Shown: in pieces, positions 60-36,653 of the stretch
Position numbering within the stretch: the first letter of the stretch is position 1
How the letters are laid out: each line of letters opens with the position of its first letter
Assembly (NCBI GenBank): GCA_019116705.1
Contig: DXBF01000006.1
Coordinates: 1 to 36,653 of the forward strand
Length of the DNA stretch: 36,653 bases
Reading direction: 5' to 3'
Source: Candidatus Gemmiger avistercoris
GTDB taxonomy: Bacteria > Bacillota > Clostridia > Oscillospirales > Ruminococcaceae
Notes under the pieces: model-generated
What the model was told of the DNA's origin: nothing
The model's input: only the letters and a program-made list of their open reading frames with translations
Database searches by the model: none
Position numbers and translations under genes: made by a program

Positions 60-430
60 CCAATTCCCGTCAGGCCGCCCGCGCAATTTTATCTTGCCGT
101 GAACGCACGGTGCTACATCTGCGTACCCGCACCCTGTAGGGCGGGGGCTTGCCCCCGCCGCGCGGTTTTGCCTTGCCCGCAAATTCCCTGCCTGCCGCAG
201 CATCCCCCGGCGCGGTCAAGACGCGCGCCCTACAAATCTACGGAATTTGCGAATGAACATCGTAAACTGCAAATTCTCGTCAGGCCGTAGGGCGGGGTCT
301 TGACCCCGCCGCGCGGTTTTGCCTTGCCCGCAAATCCCCTGCCTGCCGCAGCATTCCCCGGCGCGGTCAAGACACGCGCCCTACAAATCCACAGAATTTG
401 CCCCCGGCGCGGTCAAGACGCGCGCCCTAC
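60..430. repeat. REP/BIME array with 151-bp unit
   Basis: Five GTAG-foot hairpins lie at 136-159, 209-233 (inverted), 287-310, 360-384 (inverted) and 405-429 (inverted). The 136 to 287 and 209 to 360 distances are both 151 bp, so this is a tandem repeat of a two-hairpin unit, as in the array at 26.3-27.2 kb. No gene is credible in 1-522: the open frames here are translations of the repeats. The array continues beyond the left edge of the window. Confidence 0.9.
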
Positions 431-1835: not shown

Positions 1836-3464
1836 ATGCAGATGAATGCAACTTCCCTTGTGCGGCAAAAGGCGGAATGGGAGGAACTGGGCGTCAGGCT
1901 GCCCGCTTTCGACCACGCCGCCATGGCCGCCGCCACCAAAGCCCACCCGGTGTGGGTGCATTTCGGCGCGGGCAACATTTTCCGCGGGTTCATCGCGGCG
2001 CTGCAGCAGCGGCTGCTCAACGAGGGGCTGGCCGACCGCGGCATCATCGCGGCGGACACCTTCGACTACGACATCATCGACAAGATCTACGCCCCCTATG
2101 ACAACCTGACCATGATGGTCACGCTGAACCCCGACGGCACCACCAGCCGCGAGATCATCGGTTCGGTGGCCGAGGCGCTGAAGGCCGATTCCACCGACCC
2201 CGCCATGATGGCCCGTTTCAAAGAGATCTTCACCGACCCCGGCCTGCAGATGATCTCCTTCACCATCACCGAGAAGGGCTACGCCCTCTACCGCCCCGAC
2301 GGCAGCCTGATGCCGGTCGTCCAGGCCGACATGGACGAGGGCCCCGAACACGCCCGCCACGCCATGAGCATGGTGGCCGCCCTGCTGTATGAGCGGTTCC
2401 AGGCCGGGCAGTACCCGCTGGCCGTGGTCAGCATGGACAACTGCTCCCACAATGGCGAAAAGCTGCAGGCCAGCGTGATGACGGTGGCCGAAGCCTGGCA
2501 GAAGAACGGTTTCGTGGGCGAGGATTTCCTCGCGTACCTGCGGGACGAGCGCAAGATCGCCTTCCCCTGGTCGATGATCGACAAGATCACCCCGCGCCCC
2601 CACCAGATGGTGGAGGAATCGCTGGCGAAGGACGGCATCGAGGGCATGGCGCCCATCGTCACCTCCAAGAACACCTACATTGCGGCCTTCGTCAACGCCG
2701 AGCGGCCCCAGTACCTGGTGGTGGAGGACAAGTTCCCCAACGGCCGCCCGCCGCTGGAGAAGGCCGGCGTTTACCTGACCGACCGCGACACCGTGAACAA
2801 GACCGAGCGCATGAAGGTCACCACCTGCCTGAACCCGCTGCACACGGCCATGAGCGTCTACGGCTGCATGCTGGGCTACACGCTGATCTGCGACGAGATG
2901 AAGGACGCCGACATCGTGGCGCTGATCAAGCGGCTGGGCTACGTGGAGGGCCTGCCGGTGGTCACCGACCCCGGCATCCTGGACCCGAAAGACTTCATCG
3001 ACGAGGTGGTGGGCCAGCGCCTGCCGAACCCCTTCATGCCCGACGCGCCCCAGCGCATCGCCACCGACACGTCCCAGAAGGTGGGCATCCGCTTTGGCGA
3101 GACCATCAAGAGCTACATCGCCGAAGGCCGCGACCTGAACACGCTGGTGTCCATCCCGCTGGCGCTGGCGGGCTGGCTGCGCTACCTGCTGGCGGTGGAC
3201 GACGAGGGCAAGGCCTTTGAAGTGTCCGCCGACCCGCTGAAGGATGACCTGCAGGCGAAGCTGGCGGGCATCGAGGTGGGCAAGCCCGGGACGTACCAGG
3301 GCCAGCTCAAGAGCATCCTGAGCAACGCCTCCATCTTCGGCGTGGACCTGACCGCCACCCCGCTGGCGGCGAAGATCGAAGCATACTTTGTGGCCGAACT
3401 GGCGGGCCCCGGCGCGGTGCGCAAGACGCTGCACGAAGCGCTTTCTAGTAGGGCGGGGTCTTGA
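1836..3464 (+). CDS. uxuB: Mannitol dehydrogenase family protein, probable fructuronate reductase
   Basis: A 542-residue member of the polyol-specific long-chain dehydrogenase family. In this context it probably interconverts D-fructuronate and D-mannonate with NAD(H) in the cytoplasm, feeding the neighbouring UxuA. The Rossmann start VHFGAGNIFRGF is near residue 40. The family's catalytic Lys/Asn/His segment is visible as MKVTTCLNPLHTAM. The start at 1836 follows AAGGAG; earlier in-frame codons lack a site. The 3' end is odd: the final residues SSRAGS and the TGA stop lie in a GTAG-type REP that begins at 3448, so insertion set the stop. Substrate is inferred from the uxuA neighbour; another hexonate or polyol is possible. 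Confidence 0.85.
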   Translation: MQMNATSLVRQKAEWEELGVRLPAFDHAAMAAATKAHPVWVHFGAGNIFRGFIAALQQRLLNEGLADRGIIAADTFDYDIIDKIYAPYDNLTMMVTLNPDGTTSREIIGSVAEALKADSTDPAMMARFKEIFTDPGLQMISFTITEKGYALYRPDGSLMPVVQADMDEGPEHARHAMSMVAALLYERFQAGQYPLAVVSMDNCSHNGEKLQASVMTVAEAWQKNGFVGEDFLAYLRDERKIAFPWSMIDKITPRPHQMVEESLAKDGIEGMAPIVTSKNTYIAAFVNAERPQYLVVEDKFPNGRPPLEKAGVYLTDRDTVNKTERMKVTTCLNPLHTAMSVYGCMLGYTLICDEMKDADIVALIKRLGYVEGLPVVTDPGILDPKDFIDEVVGQRLPNPFMPDAPQRIATDTSQKVGIRFGETIKSYIAEGRDLNTLVSIPLALAGWLRYLLAVDDEGKAFEVSADPLKDDLQAKLAGIEVGKPGTYQGQLKSILSNASIFGVDLTATPLAAKIEAYFVAELAGPGAVRKTLHEALSSRAGS

Positions 3465-3748
3465 CCCCGCCGCGAACCCCCGATATCACATCCACGTTCC
3501 CATCCCCTGTAGGGCGGGGTCGTACCCCGCCGCGAACCCCCGGTATCACATCCACGTTCCCATCCCCTGTAGGGCGGGGTCGTACCCCGCAGTGCAAATT
3601 TACCTTGCCCACAATGTTCCTGTCTGCCGCCACATTCCCCGGGCGGCGTACACGCCGCCCCTACAGGCAACGGGACCTTGCGCGGCAAACACCAAAACCA
3701 CGCCTGCCAAACTGCGCCGCGGCAGTAGGGGCCGCATGTATGCGGCCC
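3448..3748. repeat. REP cluster between uxuB and uxuA
   Basis: Five GTAG-foot hairpins at 3448-3471, 3509-3531, 3569-3590, 3641-3664 (inverted) and 3725-3748. The first three sit in a unit of about 60 bp repeated in tandem. Stems differ (GGCGGGGT, GGGCGGCG, GGGCCGCA) but each keeps its complement. The first copy overlaps the uxuB 3' end. The uxuB-uxuA gap (3465-3861) otherwise holds only the uxuA promoter and ribosome binding site. Confidence 0.9.
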
Positions 3749-3779
3749 GTGCGCAATGCGGCCGGGCACCCGTTCCCGG

Positions 3780-4965: not shown

Positions 4966-4977
4966 GTTTGGCGAATG

Positions 4978-5090
4978 TCCTTTCTTTGCAAAGAAAGGAC
5001 CAAAGAAATTCCAGATAAAAAAGGCATGGGTATCTACCCATGCCTTTTTTGATTAAAATTCTTTTGGTTCTTTTCTTATAAGAAAAGAAC
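4978..5090 (+). repeat. Three-hairpin element after uxuA
   Basis: Outer arm 1 is TCCTTTCTTT-GC-AAAGAAAGGA. The core stem is GGCATGGGTA with its complement and a T6 run. Outer arm 2 is GTTCTTTTCTTATAAGAAAAGAAC in form. It starts 12 bp after the uxuA stop, and the core is a good rho-independent terminator. Confidence 0.85.
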
Positions 5091-5154: not shown

Positions 5155-5331
5155 GGCGGGGTCAAGACCCCGCCCTACAACCCGCCGCAAACGGCATATT
5201 GCATTGCAGACATTCCGGCAGATCGTAGGGGCGGCATGTATGCCGCCCGGAAGGTGTTCCTGCGGCAACGCGGTTTTGCGAGCCGACAGCCCGTTTTCGG
5301 ATGTACCGTAGGGCGGGGTCTTGACCCCGCC
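5155..5331. repeat. REP copies in the uxuA to lipoprotein gap
   Basis: Three GTAG-foot hairpins: 5155-5178 (inverted, stem GGCGGGGT), 5225-5248 (stem GGGCGGCA) and 5308-5331 (stem GGCGGGGT). Outside these and the preceding three-hairpin element I see nothing in 5091-5427. Confidence 0.9.
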
Positions 5332-6164: not shown

Positions 6165-6251
6165 CGGGCCCCCTCCTTTGCAGCTGCAGCGTTTTTTTCA
6201 TCATAGCACGCCCCCACGACCCCGTCAAGTTTTTTCGCTGCTGCGTGGTTG

Positions 6252-6534
6252 TCCTTTCTTTACAAAGAAAGGACCAAAGAAATTCCAATTAAAAATCCCA
6301 GAGGGGGTGTACCCCCTCTGGGATTTTTGGTTAAGAGTTCTTTTGGTTCTTTTCCGGGTGCAGCGGGCTGGGCAACGGTGCGAGAATGCCCGCTGCCGGG
6401 CGCAGCCGCAAGGAAGGAGGACGCCGCCATACTGTATGTATGGCAAGACCGAGTGACGCGGCGGATGCGGCCCGGCAGCAGGGCAGGAACGCGCCGGGGA
6501 TCCGGCTCCGCTGTACCCAGGGCAAGAAAAGAAC
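6252..6534. repeat. Three-hairpin element whose second arm is split by a 167-bp palindrome
   Basis: Arm 1 (6252-6273) and the core stem CCCAGAGGGGG with its complement (6298-6326, T run follows) match the other copies. The second arm is split: GGTTCTTTTC ends at 6354 and GCAAGAAAAGAAC resumes at 6522. Between them lies a GC-rich imperfect palindrome whose ends (GGGTGCAGCGG and CCGCTGTACCC) and inner parts (GCTGCCGGGC and GCCCGGCAGC) pair. The element fills most of the 6165-6537 gap and ends just past the birA stop, so it may terminate birA transcripts. Confidence 0.75.
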
Positions 6535-7763: not shown

Positions 7764-7854
7764 CGGAGGGGTCCTTTCAGAAGATACAAGATACTGCATA
7801 AGGAACGTTGCGGCAGGCGGGGTTTTGGCAGGGGCCGCGCCGGGGCCCGTTGTG

Positions 7855-7879
7855 TGCAGGGGCGGCGTGTACGCCGCCC
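7855..7879 (+). repeat. Degenerate REP (GCAG foot)
   Basis: A hairpin with stem GGGCGGCG, loop TGTA and complement CGCCGCCC. Its foot reads GCAG rather than GTAG. It lies in the 177-bp gap between rsmI and the phosphoesterase, which otherwise shows nothing. Confidence 0.7.
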
Positions 7880-7940
7880 GGGGAACGCCGTATCGGCCCG
7901 GAACATGGCGGGCAGGGCCCTGCGGCCTGCAGGGCGCGCG

Positions 7941-17323: not shown

Positions 17324-17402
17324 GGGAAAGGGCGGATATGCCGCCGGGGGATGTGGCGGCGGCCGGAGCGTCCCCCACACACCGCCCGGTTTTCCTATAG
17401 AC

Positions 17403-17576
17403 GTAGGGGCGGCGTGTACGCCGCCCGGGGATGTGGCGGCGGCCCGGAACATTGCGGGCCACGCAAATTTGCACGGCGGGGTACGACCCCGCCCTACGGA
17501 AAACGGGAACACGGCGGCAACGACCGGCGTTCGCAACAAGATAAAATTGCCCGGGCGGCCTGCAGGCCGCCCCTAC
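17403..17576. repeat. REP copies between hydrolase and jag
   Basis: Hairpins at 17403-17426 (stem GGGCGGCG), 17475-17497 (inverted, stem GGCGGGGT) and 17553-17576 (inverted, stem GGGCGGCC with a TGCA centre). Apart from the hydrolase promoter and the jag terminator, nothing else is seen in 17258-17727. Confidence 0.9.
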
Positions 17577-19997: not shown

Positions 19998-20240
19998 GGG
20001 CGGCGTACACGCCGCCCCTACGTCTACAGGAAAACCGGGCGGTGTGCGGGAAACGCTGCGTCTGCCGGGGCGTTCCTGCGGCGGGGTCAAAACCCCGCCC
20101 TACAAACTGACGGAAATTGCGAATCCAAATTGTAAATGCCCAATTTCCGTCTGGCCGTAGGGGCGGTTTTTCCAAAACACAGACGTTCCGGGCCTGCCGC
20201 CTTGTTTCGTTATTCCGTAGGGCGGGGTCTTGACCCCGCC
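19998..20240. repeat. REP copies between yidC and yidD
   Basis: Hairpins at 19998-20021 (inverted), 20080-20103 (inverted), a truncated foot and half stem at 20157-20175, and 20217-20240. They occupy most of the 400-bp yidC-yidD gap (19882-20280), where I see no gene. Confidence 0.9.
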
Positions 20241-21517: not shown

Positions 21518-21696
21518 GGCGGGGTCAAGACCCCGCCCTACAGGGCGCGGGAACGGGGATACAGCACCGCGCGTTCACGGCAAAATAAAATTGCACGGGC
21601 GGCCTGCAGGCCGCCCCTACGACCGAACGGGAATTGGTATTTACGATTTTGTTCGCAATTTCCGTAAAACCGTAGGGCGCGCGTCTTGACCGCGCC
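21518..21696. repeat. REP copies between rpmH and dnaA
   Basis: Hairpins at 21518-21541 (inverted, stem GGCGGGGT), 21597-21620 (inverted, stem GGGCGGCC) and 21672-21696 (stem GGCGCG). No DnaA-box cluster is seen in 21236-21907, so this gap looks like regulatory and repeat DNA rather than the main origin. Confidence 0.9.
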
Positions 21697-21907: not shown

Positions 21908-23218
21908 ATGGATTCCATCAACGACGTATTGGACGCGGCCAAGGCCTACTGCCGTGAACATACTGCCGAGGCAACCTATCAATATTATATCAGCGACATC
22001 AAGGCCGTCAGCTTTGAAAATTCCCGCACCATCACGCTGGAGATCCGCAACGCCTTCATCATGGGCATCGTGTCGGACCGGTACACGGCGCTGCTGCAGG
22101 ACGCTTTCAAATCGGTGCTGGGTTTCGATGTAGAGCTCGCCTTCGTGACCCCCAAGAAGGAGGAAGAGCCCGAAAAACCCAAGATGGACGAAAAACTGCT
22201 GCCCAGCGGCCGGTACGACTTCACCTTTGAGAATTTCATCAAAGGCCCGTCCAACCAGTTCGCCTATGCGGCGGCGCAGGCGGTGGCGGCGAACCCGTCG
22301 GGGGCGTACAACCCGCTGTTCATCTACGGGCCGTCGGGGCTGGGCAAGACCCATCTGCTGAACGCCATCCAGATCGAGATCAAGAAGAACCACCCGGACT
22401 TCAACATCGTCTATGTGGACTGCGAGATGTTCACCAATGAGATCATCACGGCGGTCAAGACCGCCACCACCGAGCAGTTCCGGCAGAAATACCGGCAGGC
22501 GGACGTGCTGCTGATCGACGACATCCAGTTCCTGGCGGGCAAGGAGAGCACGCAGGAGGAGTTTTTCCACACCTTCAACACGCTGCACAACGACGGGCGG
22601 CAGATCGTCATTGCGTCGGACCGTCCCGCCAAAGAGATCAAGAGCCTGGAGGAGCGCCTGCGCACCCGGTTCGAGTGGGGCCTGACGGCGGACATCCAGC
22701 CGCCGGATTTTGAGACGCGCGTGGCCATCGTCAAGCGCAAGGCGGAGCTGCTGAACCTGGACCTGCCCGACGACGTGGCGGAGTACATCGCCAATCATCT
22801 GAAACAGAACATCCGCCAGCTGGAAGGCGCGGTGAAAAAGCTCAACGCCTATTACATGCTGGAGGGCATCGCCCCCTGCATCGGCGTGACGACCACCGCC
22901 ATCAAGGATACCCTCAACGACAGCCAGCCCATCCCGGTGACCATTGAGAAGATCCTCAACGAAGTGGCCCGCACCTACAATGTGATGCCCGCGGACATCC
23001 GCGGCAAAAAGCGCAACGCCAACGTCAGCGCCGCGCGGCAGATGACCATGTACATCATCCGCGAAGTGACCGGCATGAGCATGGAGGCTATCGGGCAGGA
23101 GTTCCAGCGCGACCATTCCACGGTGGTGTATTCCATCAAGACGATGGCCGAAAACATCACCAGGGACCAGCACTTAAAAGAAATGTGCAGCGACATCATC
23201 AAGAACGTCCGCACCTGA
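21908..23218 (+). CDS. dnaA: Chromosomal replication initiator protein DnaA
   Basis: A 436-residue DnaA, the ATP-bound initiator that melts oriC. Domain I is residues about 1-80, followed by a short linker (KKEEEPEKPK). The AAA+ domain has YGPSGLGKTH (Walker A, about 139-148) and LLIDDIQFLAGKES (Walker B, about 200). The C-terminal DNA-binding domain ends with the signature QEFQRDHSTVVYS near residue 400. The start follows a rather distant GGAAGTGGGG. It leads the rightward replication cluster. Two three-hairpin elements follow the stop in tandem. Confidence 0.98.
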   Translation: MDSINDVLDAAKAYCREHTAEATYQYYISDIKAVSFENSRTITLEIRNAFIMGIVSDRYTALLQDAFKSVLGFDVELAFVTPKKEEEPEKPKMDEKLLPSGRYDFTFENFIKGPSNQFAYAAAQAVAANPSGAYNPLFIYGPSGLGKTHLLNAIQIEIKKNHPDFNIVYVDCEMFTNEIITAVKTATTEQFRQKYRQADVLLIDDIQFLAGKESTQEEFFHTFNTLHNDGRQIVIASDRPAKEIKSLEERLRTRFEWGLTADIQPPDFETRVAIVKRKAELLNLDLPDDVAEYIANHLKQNIRQLEGAVKKLNAYYMLEGIAPCIGVTTTAIKDTLNDSQPIPVTIEKILNEVARTYNVMPADIRGKKRNANVSAARQMTMYIIREVTGMSMEAIGQEFQRDHSTVVYSIKTMAENITRDQHLKEMCSDIIKNVRT

Positions 23219-23219
23219 G

Positions 23220-23322
23220 TTCCTTCTTTACAAAGAAAGAACCAAAGAAATTCCAATAAAAATCGCACGAAGTGCGATTTTGGATAAAAGTTCTTTGCCC
23301 GCTTTCTTACAAGAAAGCGGAA
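23220..23322 (+). repeat. Three-hairpin element after dnaA, copy 1
   Basis: Outer arm 1 TTCCTTCTTTAC-AAAGAAAGAA, core AATCGCAC-GA-AGTGCGATT with T run, and outer arm 2 CCGCTTTCTTACAAGAAAGCGG. It begins directly after the dnaA stop. Both the core and arm 2 stems differ from other copies but keep pairing. Confidence 0.85.
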
Positions 23323-23342
23323 CACCGCAAATAGTCCGCTTT

Positions 23343-23444
23343 GTTCCTTCTTTACAAAGAAGGAACCGAAGAAATTCCAACCAAAACGCACGTACGTGCG
23401 TTTTAATTGAAAGTTCTTTGCCTACTTTCTTTCAAGAAAGTAGG
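23343..23444 (+). repeat. Three-hairpin element after dnaA, copy 2
   Basis: Outer arm 1 GTTCCTTCTTTAC-AAAGAAGGAAC, core AACGCACGTACGTGCGTT, and outer arm 2 CCTACTTTCTT-TC-AAGAAAGTAGG. It lies in tandem with copy 1 and ends one base before a DnaA-box-like site. Confidence 0.85.
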
Positions 23445-26325: not shown

Positions 26326-27180
26326 GGCGCGGTCAAGACGCGCGCCCTACAAATCTGCGGAATATGCAAACAAAAACGGTAAATTGCAAATTCCCGTCAG
26401 GCCGCCCGCGCAATTTTATCTTGCCGCGAACGCGCGGTGCCGCATCCTCGTACCCCGATCCTGTAGGGCGGGGTCTTGACCCCGCCGTGGGATTTTGCGC
26501 GGCCCGCAAATTTCCCGCCTGCCGGGACGTTGTCCGGCGCGGTCAAGACGCGCGCCCTACAAATCCACGGAATTTGCGAACAAAAATGGCAAATCGCAAA
26601 TTAACGTCAGACCGTAGGGCGGGGTCTTGACCCCGCCGCGCGGTTTTGCGCGGCCCGCAAATCCCCCGCCTGCCGGGACGTTGTCCGGCGCGGTCAAGAC
26701 ACGCGCCCTACAAATCTGCGGAATTTGCGGACGAAAACGGTAAATCGCAAATTCCCGTTAGGCCGCCCGCGCAATTTTATCTTGCCGCGAACGCCCGGTG
26801 GCGCATCCTCGTACCCGCGCCCTACAAATCTACGGAATTTGCAAACAAAAACGGCAAATTGCAAATTCCCGTCCGGCCGTAGGGCGGGGTCTTGACCCCG
26901 CCGTGGGGTTTTGTGTGACCCGCAAATTTCCCGTCTGCCGGGACGTTGCCCGGCGCGGTCAAGACGCGCGCCCTACAAATCTGCGGAATTTGCAAACAAA
27001 AACGGCAAATTGCAAATTCCCGTCAGGCTGTAGGGCGGGGTCTTGACCCCGCCGTGGGATTTTGCGTGACCCTCAAATTTCCCGCCTGCCGGGACGTTGC
27101 CCGGCGCGGTCAAGACGCGCGCCCTACAAATCTACGGAATTTGCGAATGAAAATGGCAAAATGCAAATTCCCGTCCGGCC
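26326..27180. repeat. REP/BIME tandem array between recF and remB
   Basis: Facing hairpins in tandem. GTAG-foot copies start at 26463, 26614, 26879 and 27030; inverted copies end in CTAC and start at 26326, 26536, 26687, 26952 and 27103. Steps of 151 bp recur (26463-26614, 26879-27030, 26536-26687, 26952-27103). One step of 265 bp contains an extra 114 bp and a copy that kept only its CTAC end near 26823. Spacers are also conserved (for example AAATCTGCGGAATTTGC). The whole 1-kb gap 26246-27245 has no gene; its open frames translate the repeats. Confidence 0.95.
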
Positions 27181-27509: not shown

Positions 27510-27648
27510 GCGGGGACGGCAAAACCGGCAGGTCCCGGGCCGCGCCAACCCCCCATGGCAGCCGCCCCGTAACCCCCGTGGCCGAGGGAGCACGGCGGGG
27601 TACGACCCCGCCCTGCCCCTGTACGGGAGACCCATCAGAGTTTCTTTG

Positions 27649-27672
27649 GTCCTTTCTTTGCAAAGAAAGGAC
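27649..27672. repeat. Lone outer arm of three-hairpin element before gyrB
   Basis: GGTCCTTTCTTT-GC-AAAGAAAGGAC ends about 20 bp before the gyrB start, with no core or second arm. It would fold in the gyrB leader close to the ribosome binding site (GAGGAAAG). Confidence 0.7.
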
Positions 27673-27681
27673 AGAAAGTGA

Positions 27682-29679
<1,998 letters not shown>

Positions 29680-29954: not shown

Positions 29955-30509
29955 ATGGACTACCCCAAACGGAAAAATCCCCGGTTGGCCGCCTTTGATT
30001 ACAGCGCGCCCAATATCTACTTTCTGACGCTGTGCACCCGGGGCAGAAACCGCTGCCTTTCCCGGATCGTAGGGCGGGGTCTTGACCCCGCCGTGCCGCG
30101 CCCCGGCAGCCGGGACCCTTCCACCGTAGGATACGCCCTGGAATTGACGCCCTTCGGTCGCATCGCCGAACAGGACCTGCTGGACCTGCCCCGGCATTTT
30201 GACGGCGTGACGGTCCTGCAATACGTCATCATGCCCGATCATATCCATATTCTTTTGCAATTGGATGCTGCCGGACCGGCGGCGGGGTCAAGACCCCGCC
30301 CTACAAAGCCCCCGGATCAAGGGCGGCCCCGTCCGGCGGTCCCCACCATGATCGGGCAATATAAATCGGGCGTCAGCCGCCGCTGCGGCCGCGCCCTGTG
30401 GCAGCCTTCCTACTATGACCATGTGGTGCGCAACGAAGCGGAATTGCTGGAGATCCGGCGTTATATCGAAAACAATCCCCTGCAATGGCTGCTGGACGGC
30501 AAGGCGTAG
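29955..30509 (+). CDS. REP-associated tyrosine transposase (RAYT, Y1/HUH family)
   Basis: A 184-residue IS200-like single-domain transposase. The N-terminus YSAPNIYFLTLCTRGRNRC is typical. VIMPDHIHILL holds the HUH pair His96 and His98. WQPSYYDHVVRNEAELLEIRRY gives the likely nucleophile Tyr170 before IENNPLQW. AGGAGG lies 8 bp before the ATG. Relatives cut single-stranded REP hairpins at their GTAG foot. Two REP hairpins lie in the frame itself: 30069-30092 (residues 39-46) and 30281-30304, inverted (residues 110-116), in loops between core motifs. Another REP is at 30525. It sits between gyrB and gyrA. Catalytic residues look intact; activity is not known. Confidence 0.9.
   Translation: MDYPKRKNPRLAAFDYSAPNIYFLTLCTRGRNRCLSRIVGRGLDPAVPRPGSRDPSTVGYALELTPFGRIAEQDLLDLPRHFDGVTVLQYVIMPDHIHILLQLDAAGPAAGSRPRPTKPPDQGRPRPAVPTMIGQYKSGVSRRCGRALWQPSYYDHVVRNEAELLEIRRYIENNPLQWLLDGKA
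30069..30092 (+). repeat. REP inside the RAYT gene, copy 1
   Basis: GTAG foot, stem GGCGGGGT, loop CTTG and full complement, the same sequence as the copies at 3448, 5308 and 26463. It is translated as VGRGLDPA within the transposase. At 24 bp it keeps the frame. Confidence 0.95.
30281..30304 (-). repeat. REP inside the RAYT gene, copy 2 (inverted)
   Basis: The same 24-bp hairpin in inverted orientation, ending in CTAC, translated as GSRPRPT between the HUH motif and the YKSGVSRR segment. With copy 1 it makes a facing pair within the coding sequence. Confidence 0.95.
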
Positions 30510-30524
30510 ACCTTCCGTTGCCCT

Positions 30525-30547
30525 GTAGGGCGGGGTCGTACCCCGCC
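30525..30547 (+). repeat. REP downstream of the RAYT gene
   Basis: GTAG foot with stem GGCGGGGT and loop CGT, 16 bp past the transposase stop. The rest of the gap to gyrA (30548-30653) is AT-richer with AAGGTGG before the gyrA start. Confidence 0.9.
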
Positions 30548-30653: not shown

Positions 30654-33224
<2,571 letters not shown>

Positions 33225-33234
33225 TTGGCTTTTT

Positions 33235-33353
33235 GTTCCTTCTTTGCAAAGAAGGAACCGAAGAAACTCCAATTAAAAATCCCAGAGGGGGCGTGCCCCC
33301 TCTGGGATTTTTGGTTAAGAGTTCTTTTGGTTCTTTTCTTGCAAGAAAAGAAC
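33235..33353 (+). repeat. Three-hairpin element between convergent gyrA and permease genes
   Basis: Outer arm 1 GTTCCTTCTTT-GC-AAAGAAGGAAC, core CCCAGAGGGGG with complement and T run, and outer arm 2 GTTCTTTTCTT-GC-AAGAAAAGAAC. This is the most complete copy. It lies between two converging genes and could terminate both, as the core has A and T runs on both sides. Confidence 0.9.
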
Positions 33354-36227: not shown

Positions 36228-36263
36228 CAGGGACCTCCCGAAAAAATAAGTAGAGTTTCTTCG

Positions 36264-36287
36264 CTTCCTTCTTTGCAAAGAAGGAAG
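36264..36287. repeat. Lone outer arm of three-hairpin element
   Basis: CTTCCTTCTTT-GC-AAAGAAGGAAG palindrome, about 40 bp upstream of the surface-protein start, with no core or second arm. Confidence 0.7.
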
Positions 36288-36370
36288 AAAAACAGAACAA
36301 AAATGGTAAACCGCCGTGGGGTTTTGCCTTTACGCAAACGCCCGGTATGGCATCCACGTTCCCGCATCCT

Positions 36371-36653
36371 GTAGGGCGGGGTTTTGACCCCGCCGTGGGG
36401 TTTGGCGCGGCCCGCAAATCCCCTGCCCGTCCGGTCGTAGGGGCGGCCTGTAGGCCGCCCGTGCAATTTTATCTTGCCGTGAACGCGCGGTGCTGCATCC
36501 ACGTTCCCGTTTTCTGTAGGGCGGGGGCTTGCCCCCGCCGCGCGGTTTTGCGTTGCCAGCAAATTCTCCGCCTGCCGCAGCGCTCCCCGGCGCGGTCAAG
36601 ACACGCGCCCTACAAATCCACGGAATTTGCGAATAAAAATGGCAAATTGCAAA
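36371..36653. repeat. REP/BIME array at right edge
   Basis: Hairpins at 36371-36394, 36437-36460 (stem GGGCGGCC), 36516-36539 (stem GGCGGGGG) and 36589-36613 (inverted). The last two are 73 bp apart, the same spacing as the pair at 136 and 209, and the spacers match. The array runs off the window. No gene is seen in 36228-36653. Confidence 0.9.

Follow-up and report, generated by a model that had tools for sequence, protein, structure and literature searches.

Outward-facing pairs of REP hairpins inside the coding sequence of RAYT genes from Gemmiger and other Clostridia

The window, i.e., the whole 36,653-nt stretch of DNA analysed here, comes from Candidatus Gemmiger avistercoris (contig DXBF01000006.1), whose genome bin (G000) is 1.95 Mb in size and 83% complete. 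A gene for a REP-associated tyrosine transposase (RAYT, or TnpAREP) lies in it between gyrB and gyrA (Table 1). This placement, made in an initial annotation from the letters alone, agrees with the family models, since the translated reading frame matches PF01797 (Y1_Tnp) at 30.8 bits against a cut-off of 23 and both neighbours are identified as gyrase genes. The best NCBIfam match is the REP-associated tyrosine transposase model NF047646 (E 3e-15). The window RAYT misses the cut-off of this model (56.2 bits vs 80), which is one database's naming threshold and corresponds to no defining trait in the passages of the RAYT papers covered. A six-frame PF01797 search of the genome returned 0 matches and missed the RAYT gene, which the protein search recovered. 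It is the single RAYT match in the 83% complete bin, fitting the usual one gene per REP family. The AlphaFold model has a mean pLDDT of 86, and Foldseek matches it to 2xm3 (ISDra2 TnpA) and 4er8 (the E. coli RAYT-REP complex). The HUH pair and nucleophile proposed at the outset hold in an alignment of 41 sequences, where every sequence has His96, and conservation of His98 and Tyr170 is 90% or higher. With a Y1 HUH fold, an HUH motif and one tyrosine, the protein is identified, from sequence and modelled structure, as a RAYT/TnpAREP. The RAYT in this gut bacterium is a domesticated transposase. Its closest named match is L061, from a Candidatus Gemmiger genome of the same genus (G022).

Table 1. 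Genes, catalytic codons and GTAG hairpins in the window, with positions counted from its first letter.
Feature	Position	Strand	Remark
RAYT (TnpAREP) CDS	29955..30509	+	184 aa, Y1 HUH; family models and fold
gyrB, upstream neighbour	27694..29679	+	above NCBI equivalog cut-off
gyrA, downstream neighbour	30654..33224	+	above NCBI equivalog cut-off
HUH motif codons, His96-Ile-His98	30240..30248	+	ORF translation, alignment
Probable catalytic Tyr170 codon	30462..30464	+	ORF translation, alignment
Site 1 embedded REP hairpin, GTAGGGCGGGGTCTTGACCCCGCC	30069..30092	+	codes VGRGLDPA, residues 39-46
Site 2 embedded REP hairpin, GTAGGGCGGGGTCTTGACCCCGCC	30281..30304	-	after HUH strand, low-confidence loop 108-119
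Third GTAG hairpin, 3-nt loop variant	30525..30547	+	just past RAYT stop codon
Exact REP copy	287..310	+	pattern search
Exact REP copy	3448..3471	+	pattern search
Exact REP copy	5155..5178	-	pattern search
Exact REP copy	5308..5331	+	pattern search
Exact REP copy	20217..20240	+	pattern search
Exact REP copy	21518..21541	-	pattern search
Exact REP copy in repeat array	26463..26486	+	pattern search
Exact REP copy in repeat array	26614..26637	+	pattern search
Exact REP copy in repeat array	26879..26902	+	pattern search
Exact REP copy in repeat array	27030..27053	+	pattern search

Two identical 24-nt hairpins with a GTAG foot lie in the RAYT coding sequence, in opposite orientations and both in frame, and a third follows the stop codon, as first described. 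Folded as single-stranded DNA, each has an 8-bp stem (z -4.2, -3.2 and -2.7), and the foot of the window stem, GGC/GCC, makes three G-C pairs. In the AlphaFold model, site 1 lies between the first strand and the next helix, at a strand end running into a loop, and site 2 (about residues 109-117) is inside the sole segment with pLDDT below 50, residues 108-119. The claim that both hairpins keep the frame and fall in loops is thus borne out. They had also been called identical to hairpins elsewhere in the window, and there are ten further exact copies there. The genome holds 37 exact copies of the 24-mer GTAGGGCGGGGTCTTGACCCCGCC and 64 with up to three mismatches, vs 0 for a reversed control. 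Rfam matched nothing in the window at gathering thresholds.

Two other hairpin families are present in the window. A palindrome of about TTCCTTCTTTGCAAAGAAGGAA, with no GTAG foot, is found at 4974-5020, 6248-6294, 23216-23262 and 23340-23386, with further sites of this family at 27637-27686, 33232-33278 and 36252-36301; a similar palindrome is also in the gyrB-gyrA gap of a relative (G001, L146). A GTAG-type family, mostly GTAGGGGCGGC..., occurs at 3715-3749, 5215-5249, 7846-7880, 17393-17427 and 36427-36461. A second RAYT to go with it was not found in the 83% complete bin.

The embedded hairpins match repeats across the genome in type. Four embedded types (A-D), chosen because they are present in RAYTs, were counted exactly over all 35 genomes of the genus. 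The threshold of three copies outside the gene was reached in 13 of 13 genome-type cases with the embedded type vs 9 of 127 others (pooled Fisher p 7e-13, ignoring phylogeny). The gene therefore carries hairpins of the RAYT's own cognate repeat family, as had been presumed, and the RAYT-repeat correlation, whose absence had been named as refuting, is strong. Type A is frequent without a type-A embedded RAYT in G019 (23 copies), G013 (44), G034 (12) and G004 (10), and five more such mismatches are type B in G016 (3), type C in G006, G016 and G003, and type D in G023. Loss of the RAYT may explain frequent types that lack their own embedded RAYT. The match extends to the loops of type C, in-gene copies counted: 22 of 25 copies in G027, two of them in the gene, have its RAYT's loop GTGACC, and all 16 in G028 and 11 in G017 have GTGCCC, like their RAYTs. 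The type of Ruminococcus albus is in 3 of the 24 genomes behind related loci. Two of these are the genomes whose RAYT carries it, with 4 and 11 copies, and in both the gene accounts for two of the copies. Samples of 80-400 kb from seven genomes gave copies outside the gene for 10 of 13 embedded types, and for 3 of the 13 only the gene's own two copies were found. These samples are mostly from RAYT-holding contigs, and part of the fetched stretches was analysed. The counts show that the two in-gene hairpins are members of the genome's REP family.

Outside the RAYT gene, the same hairpins mostly lie between genes. Gene calls for this comparison, in the window and in three genus genomes (G006, G016 and G027), come from a rough ORF heuristic that missed one RAYT gene. 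Called ORFs in the window overlap 3 of the 14 other copies there. The sampled DNA of the three genomes, 82-84% of which is covered by called genes, has 289 hairpins, 16 of them in RAYT genes. Of the 273 non-RAYT hairpins, 243 are outside called genes, 14 are at least 100 nt inside another called gene and 16 are within 100 nt of a gene end. Hairpins mostly avoid genes here, and the RAYT gene is a systematic exception. This placement goes against the proposal of selection on the 24-bp unit for insertion that leaves the frame unchanged. The proposal was rejected on hairpin length as well: in homologues, the same two sites hold hairpins of 23 to 26 nt and the frame is intact.

The homologues come from 100 related genomes (27 with matches) and 35 genus genomes (18 with matches), two sets that overlap, together with one genome-collection scan that gave 73 loci. 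The lists of relatives are biased to the query, since the scan used peptide patterns from the window RAYT. From 112 loci scanned, 91 genes were kept for the count. Six repeats were dropped (L034, L135, L137, L138, L140 and L142; one separate G027 gene was lost via L140), as were fifteen partial or broken hits (L056, L057, L101, L102, L107, L115-L118, L123, L124, L128-L130 and L136), among which L101 and L128 each reached a pair score of 21. Some of the 91 are nearly identical genes of separate origin, and three have an internal stop (L047, L054 and L055), with L054 counted as having a pair. A pair was defined as a GTAG-anchored inverted pair inside the coding sequence with at least 17 of 23 positions matching. 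Arms were compared with each other directly, and hairpin detection without G-T pairs missed L062, L070 and L077 among others.

By this definition, 49 of the 91 genes have an embedded, outward-facing pair, which in 48 of them spans the same two loops. The pair scores are 23 in 27 genes, 22 in 11, 21 in 6, 20 in 3, and 19 and 17 in one each, and the remaining 42 genes reach at most 16 of 23. None of 4900 codon shuffles of the 49 genes reached 17 of 23, so a pair in the coding sequence is not expected by chance. Pairs are found in 49 of 62 genes of Bacillota or of the window's own order and in 0 of 29 from other phyla. The arm order is plus then minus with the GTAG feet outward; a feet-inward pair was seen in L061 only. 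Site 1 opens with an in-frame GTA (Val) codon in 49 of 49 genes, followed by GGG in 48 and GCG in 1, and the pair spans 158-239 nt (median 197, n = 47). Across these genes, the place, order and polarity of the arms are conserved in many RAYTs of Oscillospirales and other Clostridia.

A check proposed at the outset was whether the hairpin segments are extra relative to hairpin-free homologues. The median loop length is 21 residues in hairpin-free vs 29 in hairpin-bearing genes at site 1 and 22.5 vs 27 at site 2, though the ranges overlap. The shorter-loop, hairpin-free relatives include E. coli RayT and the Pasteurellaceae RAYTs. Nine genes of the same order have no pair (L038, L039, L040, L045, L047, L049, L050, L055 and L141), and some of these keep one arm. 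A single intact arm is present in five genes (L040, L047, L049, L055 and L082), and one arm is decayed at site 1 in G017 and at site 2 in G030 and G002. Directly 3' of the RAYT gene of G017 is a tandem array of twelve GTAG hairpins, repeating about every 31 nt (L040:1986-2352).

Two genes have grown at site 1. In L061, two 120-nt hairpin units and a third hairpin stand in tandem and in frame (L061:5115-5400). Its counted pair is within this expansion, and its site-2 arm has no CTAC foot. The two in-gene units are identical at 115 of 120 positions, and a unit lying shortly after the gene shares 83% identity with them over 107 nt. In L122, in-frame 84-nt hairpin repeats give about four copies of a 28-residue peptide (L122:5001-5876). 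These in-frame units imply that the embedded arms take part in repeat exchange.

Stem type varies widely between genes, as seen from the 34 distinct site-1 sequences. Beyond the GTAG, arm identity is 18.0 of 19 within a gene vs 9.0 of 19 across 34 genes of distinct type, and the within-gene match was reached in 0 of 10000 permutations. Thus, in the genes compared, the stem type changes at both sites together. Among genes of the same type (23 comparisons of 24 genes), hairpin DNA identity is 99.0%, vs an average of 58% at third codon positions elsewhere; since the genes were picked because they share a type, it is the contrast with the third positions that is informative. On this contrast, the conserved element is the DNA hairpin, not the peptide.

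Embedded and flanking pairs are seldom found together. An outward flanking pair within about 500 nt accompanies 1 of 49 genes with an embedded pair vs 10 of 42 without (Fisher 0.002, phylogeny ignored), as if one arrangement replaces the other. For the window gene, no outward flanking pair of at least 18 of 23 was found within about 500 nt. Of the 27 genus loci with both neighbours seen (among 30 loci retrieved), 10 have the RAYT between gyrB and gyrA. Seven of these ten genes have embedded hairpins of type A or B, those of G019 and G016 have an outward flanking pair, and that of G013 has neither. Elsewhere, in G095 (L043:999-1427 and 1501-2022), the RAYT adjoins a gene 43% identical to the window GyrA over the part probed, perhaps another type II topoisomerase neighbour. 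In the trees, the flanking G019 gene is sister to the embedded G028 gene (99/85), and the embedded gene L052 is placed among flanking Pasteurellaceae genes (97/88), so the arrangements probably changed several times. The trees need 10 label changes, and starred branches force at least 2 in one analysis and at least 7 in another; they rest on 133 columns with many open forks and unsettled bootstrap, and gain is indistinguishable from loss.

Among adjacent GTAGGG hairpins within 300 nt, outward pairs outnumber inward ones in four sampled genomes (49/22, 23/3, 5/1 and 10/4), but close pairs of the GTAGGGCGGGGTCTTGACCCCGCC type in the window are outward in 8 cases, inward in 9 and the same way in 4. 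Outward pairs are commonly 72-98 nt in the window, G006 and G016, and longer in G036 and G013. A mobile copy of the coding segment between the arms was searched for with 12 genes, the window gene not among them, in sampled DNA of 8 genomes. None was found outside RAYT genes, the search returning other RAYT genes or matches of up to 22 nt, so the pair shows no sign of transposing as a unit. A mobile coding REPIN was therefore rejected for the sampled DNA.

We suggest that the gene is a compact REPtron, i.e., a RAYT that carries its cognate REP pair in its own coding sequence, where the pair would be kept as a DNA-level signal. From the sequence comparisons we give this reading a probability of roughly 0.6. 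With its GTAG feet outward, the pair has the same polarity as classical pairs flanking a RAYT and as most close REP pairs in the sampled relatives. One REP is thereby available on either strand of the RAYT gene, and the RAYT would recognise the embedded hairpins as single-stranded DNA, with one REP substrate per strand. For TnpAREP of other groups, passages of PMC8266576 describe binding and cleavage of single-stranded REP and not of its inverse, with cleavage at CT or CA sites and the GTAG involved. We infer that the RAYT acts on its embedded hairpins and that the pair seeds the REPs of the genome; the pair would be kept because cis linkage to its own REPs lets an enzyme seed and sustain that REP family. 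Cis preference and orthoswitching were proposed for RAYT-flanking REPs in the covered text of Nunvar et al. 2013 (PMC3686654), and the embedded arms may take the role that flanking REPs have in this orthoswitch model.

The main rival is that the hairpins are mere passengers, left by an ancient entry of REPs into two permissive loops and since overwritten, like all other REP copies, via REP exchange or gene conversion, with no benefit to the RAYT. We consider this appreciably less probable than the compact REPtron, even though passive homogenisation could produce the co-variation of the arms. Passages of PMC6006769 and PMC3733652 describe intragenic REPs at loops, in RAYT as well as other genes, both sites here are at loops in the AlphaFold model, and the in-frame 120-nt expansion of L061 indicates that exchange with neighbouring repeats does happen. 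Passengers should, however, be lost or left single, yet 49 genes have both arms in one fixed polarity, against five noted with a single intact arm. The scarcity of hairpins in other called genes and the rarity of a flanking pair where an embedded one is present also argue against passengers.

Control at the level of the mRNA is less probable again, and we regard it as unlikely. The hairpins, or a 24-bp duplex between them, would act by slowing translation, by recruiting RNase III or by binding the RAYT, and the transposase would thus limit its own synthesis. REP hairpins may down-regulate RAYTs as has been observed for IS200 transposases, according to passages of PMC3733652, and the window mRNA folds with a z of -4.0, its minimum-energy structure pairing sites 1 and 2 as a long duplex. 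The differences between arms point the other way. In the 34 of 36 distinct pairs with comparable geometry, the arms differ at 9 of 297 stem pairs and 13 of 108 loop positions, and of the nine stem differences eight are compensatory (both pairs Watson-Crick), none is one-sided and one is of another kind; two of the eight fall in the expanded gene L061. Such changes keep the local hairpin and break the long site-1/site-2 duplex, which is therefore disfavoured as the selected structure. Non-Watson-Crick stem pairs, read in the GTAG orientation, are G-T in 10 cases, A-C in 1 and others in 19. The site-2 mRNA strand then has A-C instead of G-T, and this bias points, weakly since the sites are not independent, to the GTAG DNA strand. 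Regulation, moreover, needs no match to the genome's REP family.

A protein-level need, with the hairpin-coded peptides as functional loops and the DNA palindrome as a by-product, is very improbable: the valine codon that always starts site 1 and the longer median loops would fit it, but the peptides vary with stem type (VGRGLDPA, VGEGLAPP, VGADARIGP and VGATIGRP), third positions are conserved inside the hairpins and not outside, and the hairpin-free L038, L045 and L094 keep open frames and the HUH motif.

REPs inside a RAYT gene are of a known kind. For TnpAREP subclass 2.4, the covered text of Quentin et al. 2018 (PMC6006769) describes REPs inserted in frame into tnpAREP genes, as a rule between HuH and Y and on top of flanking REPs, so the core observation is not in itself new. 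By description, subclass 2.4 (RAYT group 4) resembles the present genes in the Y1 HUH protein and the in-frame GTAG REPs in the gene. Its variable b3-aC loop corresponds to site 2, and neither it nor the window RAYT has a long C-terminal extension. The window stem fits the foot given there (three G-C pairs or a double foot), whereas type B (GGA) and the R. albus type (GGT) do not. Unlike subclass 2.4, the genes studied here have a fixed outward pair with site 1 before HuH and site 2 between HuH and Y, an outward flanking pair accompanies the embedded one in only 1 of 49 genes, and the taxa are Clostridia. In a Chloroflexi MAG (L073, about 813-840) and a Peribacteria MAG (L098, about 2842-2870), an in-gene palindrome has GTAG at both ends (GTAGAGACG...), resembling the double-foot REPs described for subclass 2.4 in the text covered of PMC6006769.

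As described in passages of PMC8266576 and PMC3686654, the classical REPtron (E. coli, Stenotrophomonas, Pseudomonas) likewise has one RAYT per cognate REP family, a genome-wide REP population and type switches between orthologues (orthoswitch). Its REPs are outside the gene, whereas here they are inside; G019 and G016 have the flanking form at the gyrB-gyrA locus. The embedded pair has two inverted REPs like a REPIN, as presented in the covered text of Bertels and Rainey 2011 (PMC3116915), but its spacer is coding and no mobile copy was found for the 12 genes in the 8 genomes sampled. Intragenic REPs in the passages covered of Di Nocera et al. 2013 (PMC3733652) are also in frame in coding sequences, in recB at about the same site in two species. 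The genes there include uvrA, recB and dnaE2, mostly with different sites, whereas here the cognate transposase has a fixed pair. The fixed two-site pair, the concerted stem change and the genome-wide arm match are absent from the passages covered of PMC3733652, PMC6006769, PMC8266576, PMC3686654, PMC3116915 and PMC12306157. Within this literature text, these three features appear new beyond subclass 2.4.

The compact REPtron bears on the origin of REP families, on their switches of type and on the lasting tie of each to one RAYT; in the passages covered of PMC3686654 the authors of the orthoswitch model call its molecular mechanism only a matter for speculation. A tentative and rather doubtful extension of the compact REPtron is that the genome's REP family is determined genetically by the RAYT coding sequence, with the two arms as master copies. 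Specificity and substrate would then be inherited and transferred together in one ORF, and a change of the arms would reset the REP type chromosome-wide. A clade with the enzyme and its cognate REP pair in one frame would provide many natural enzyme-substrate pairs of predicted specificity that could be swapped. It would also be a clear example of a coding sequence overridden by selection, or drive, at the DNA level.
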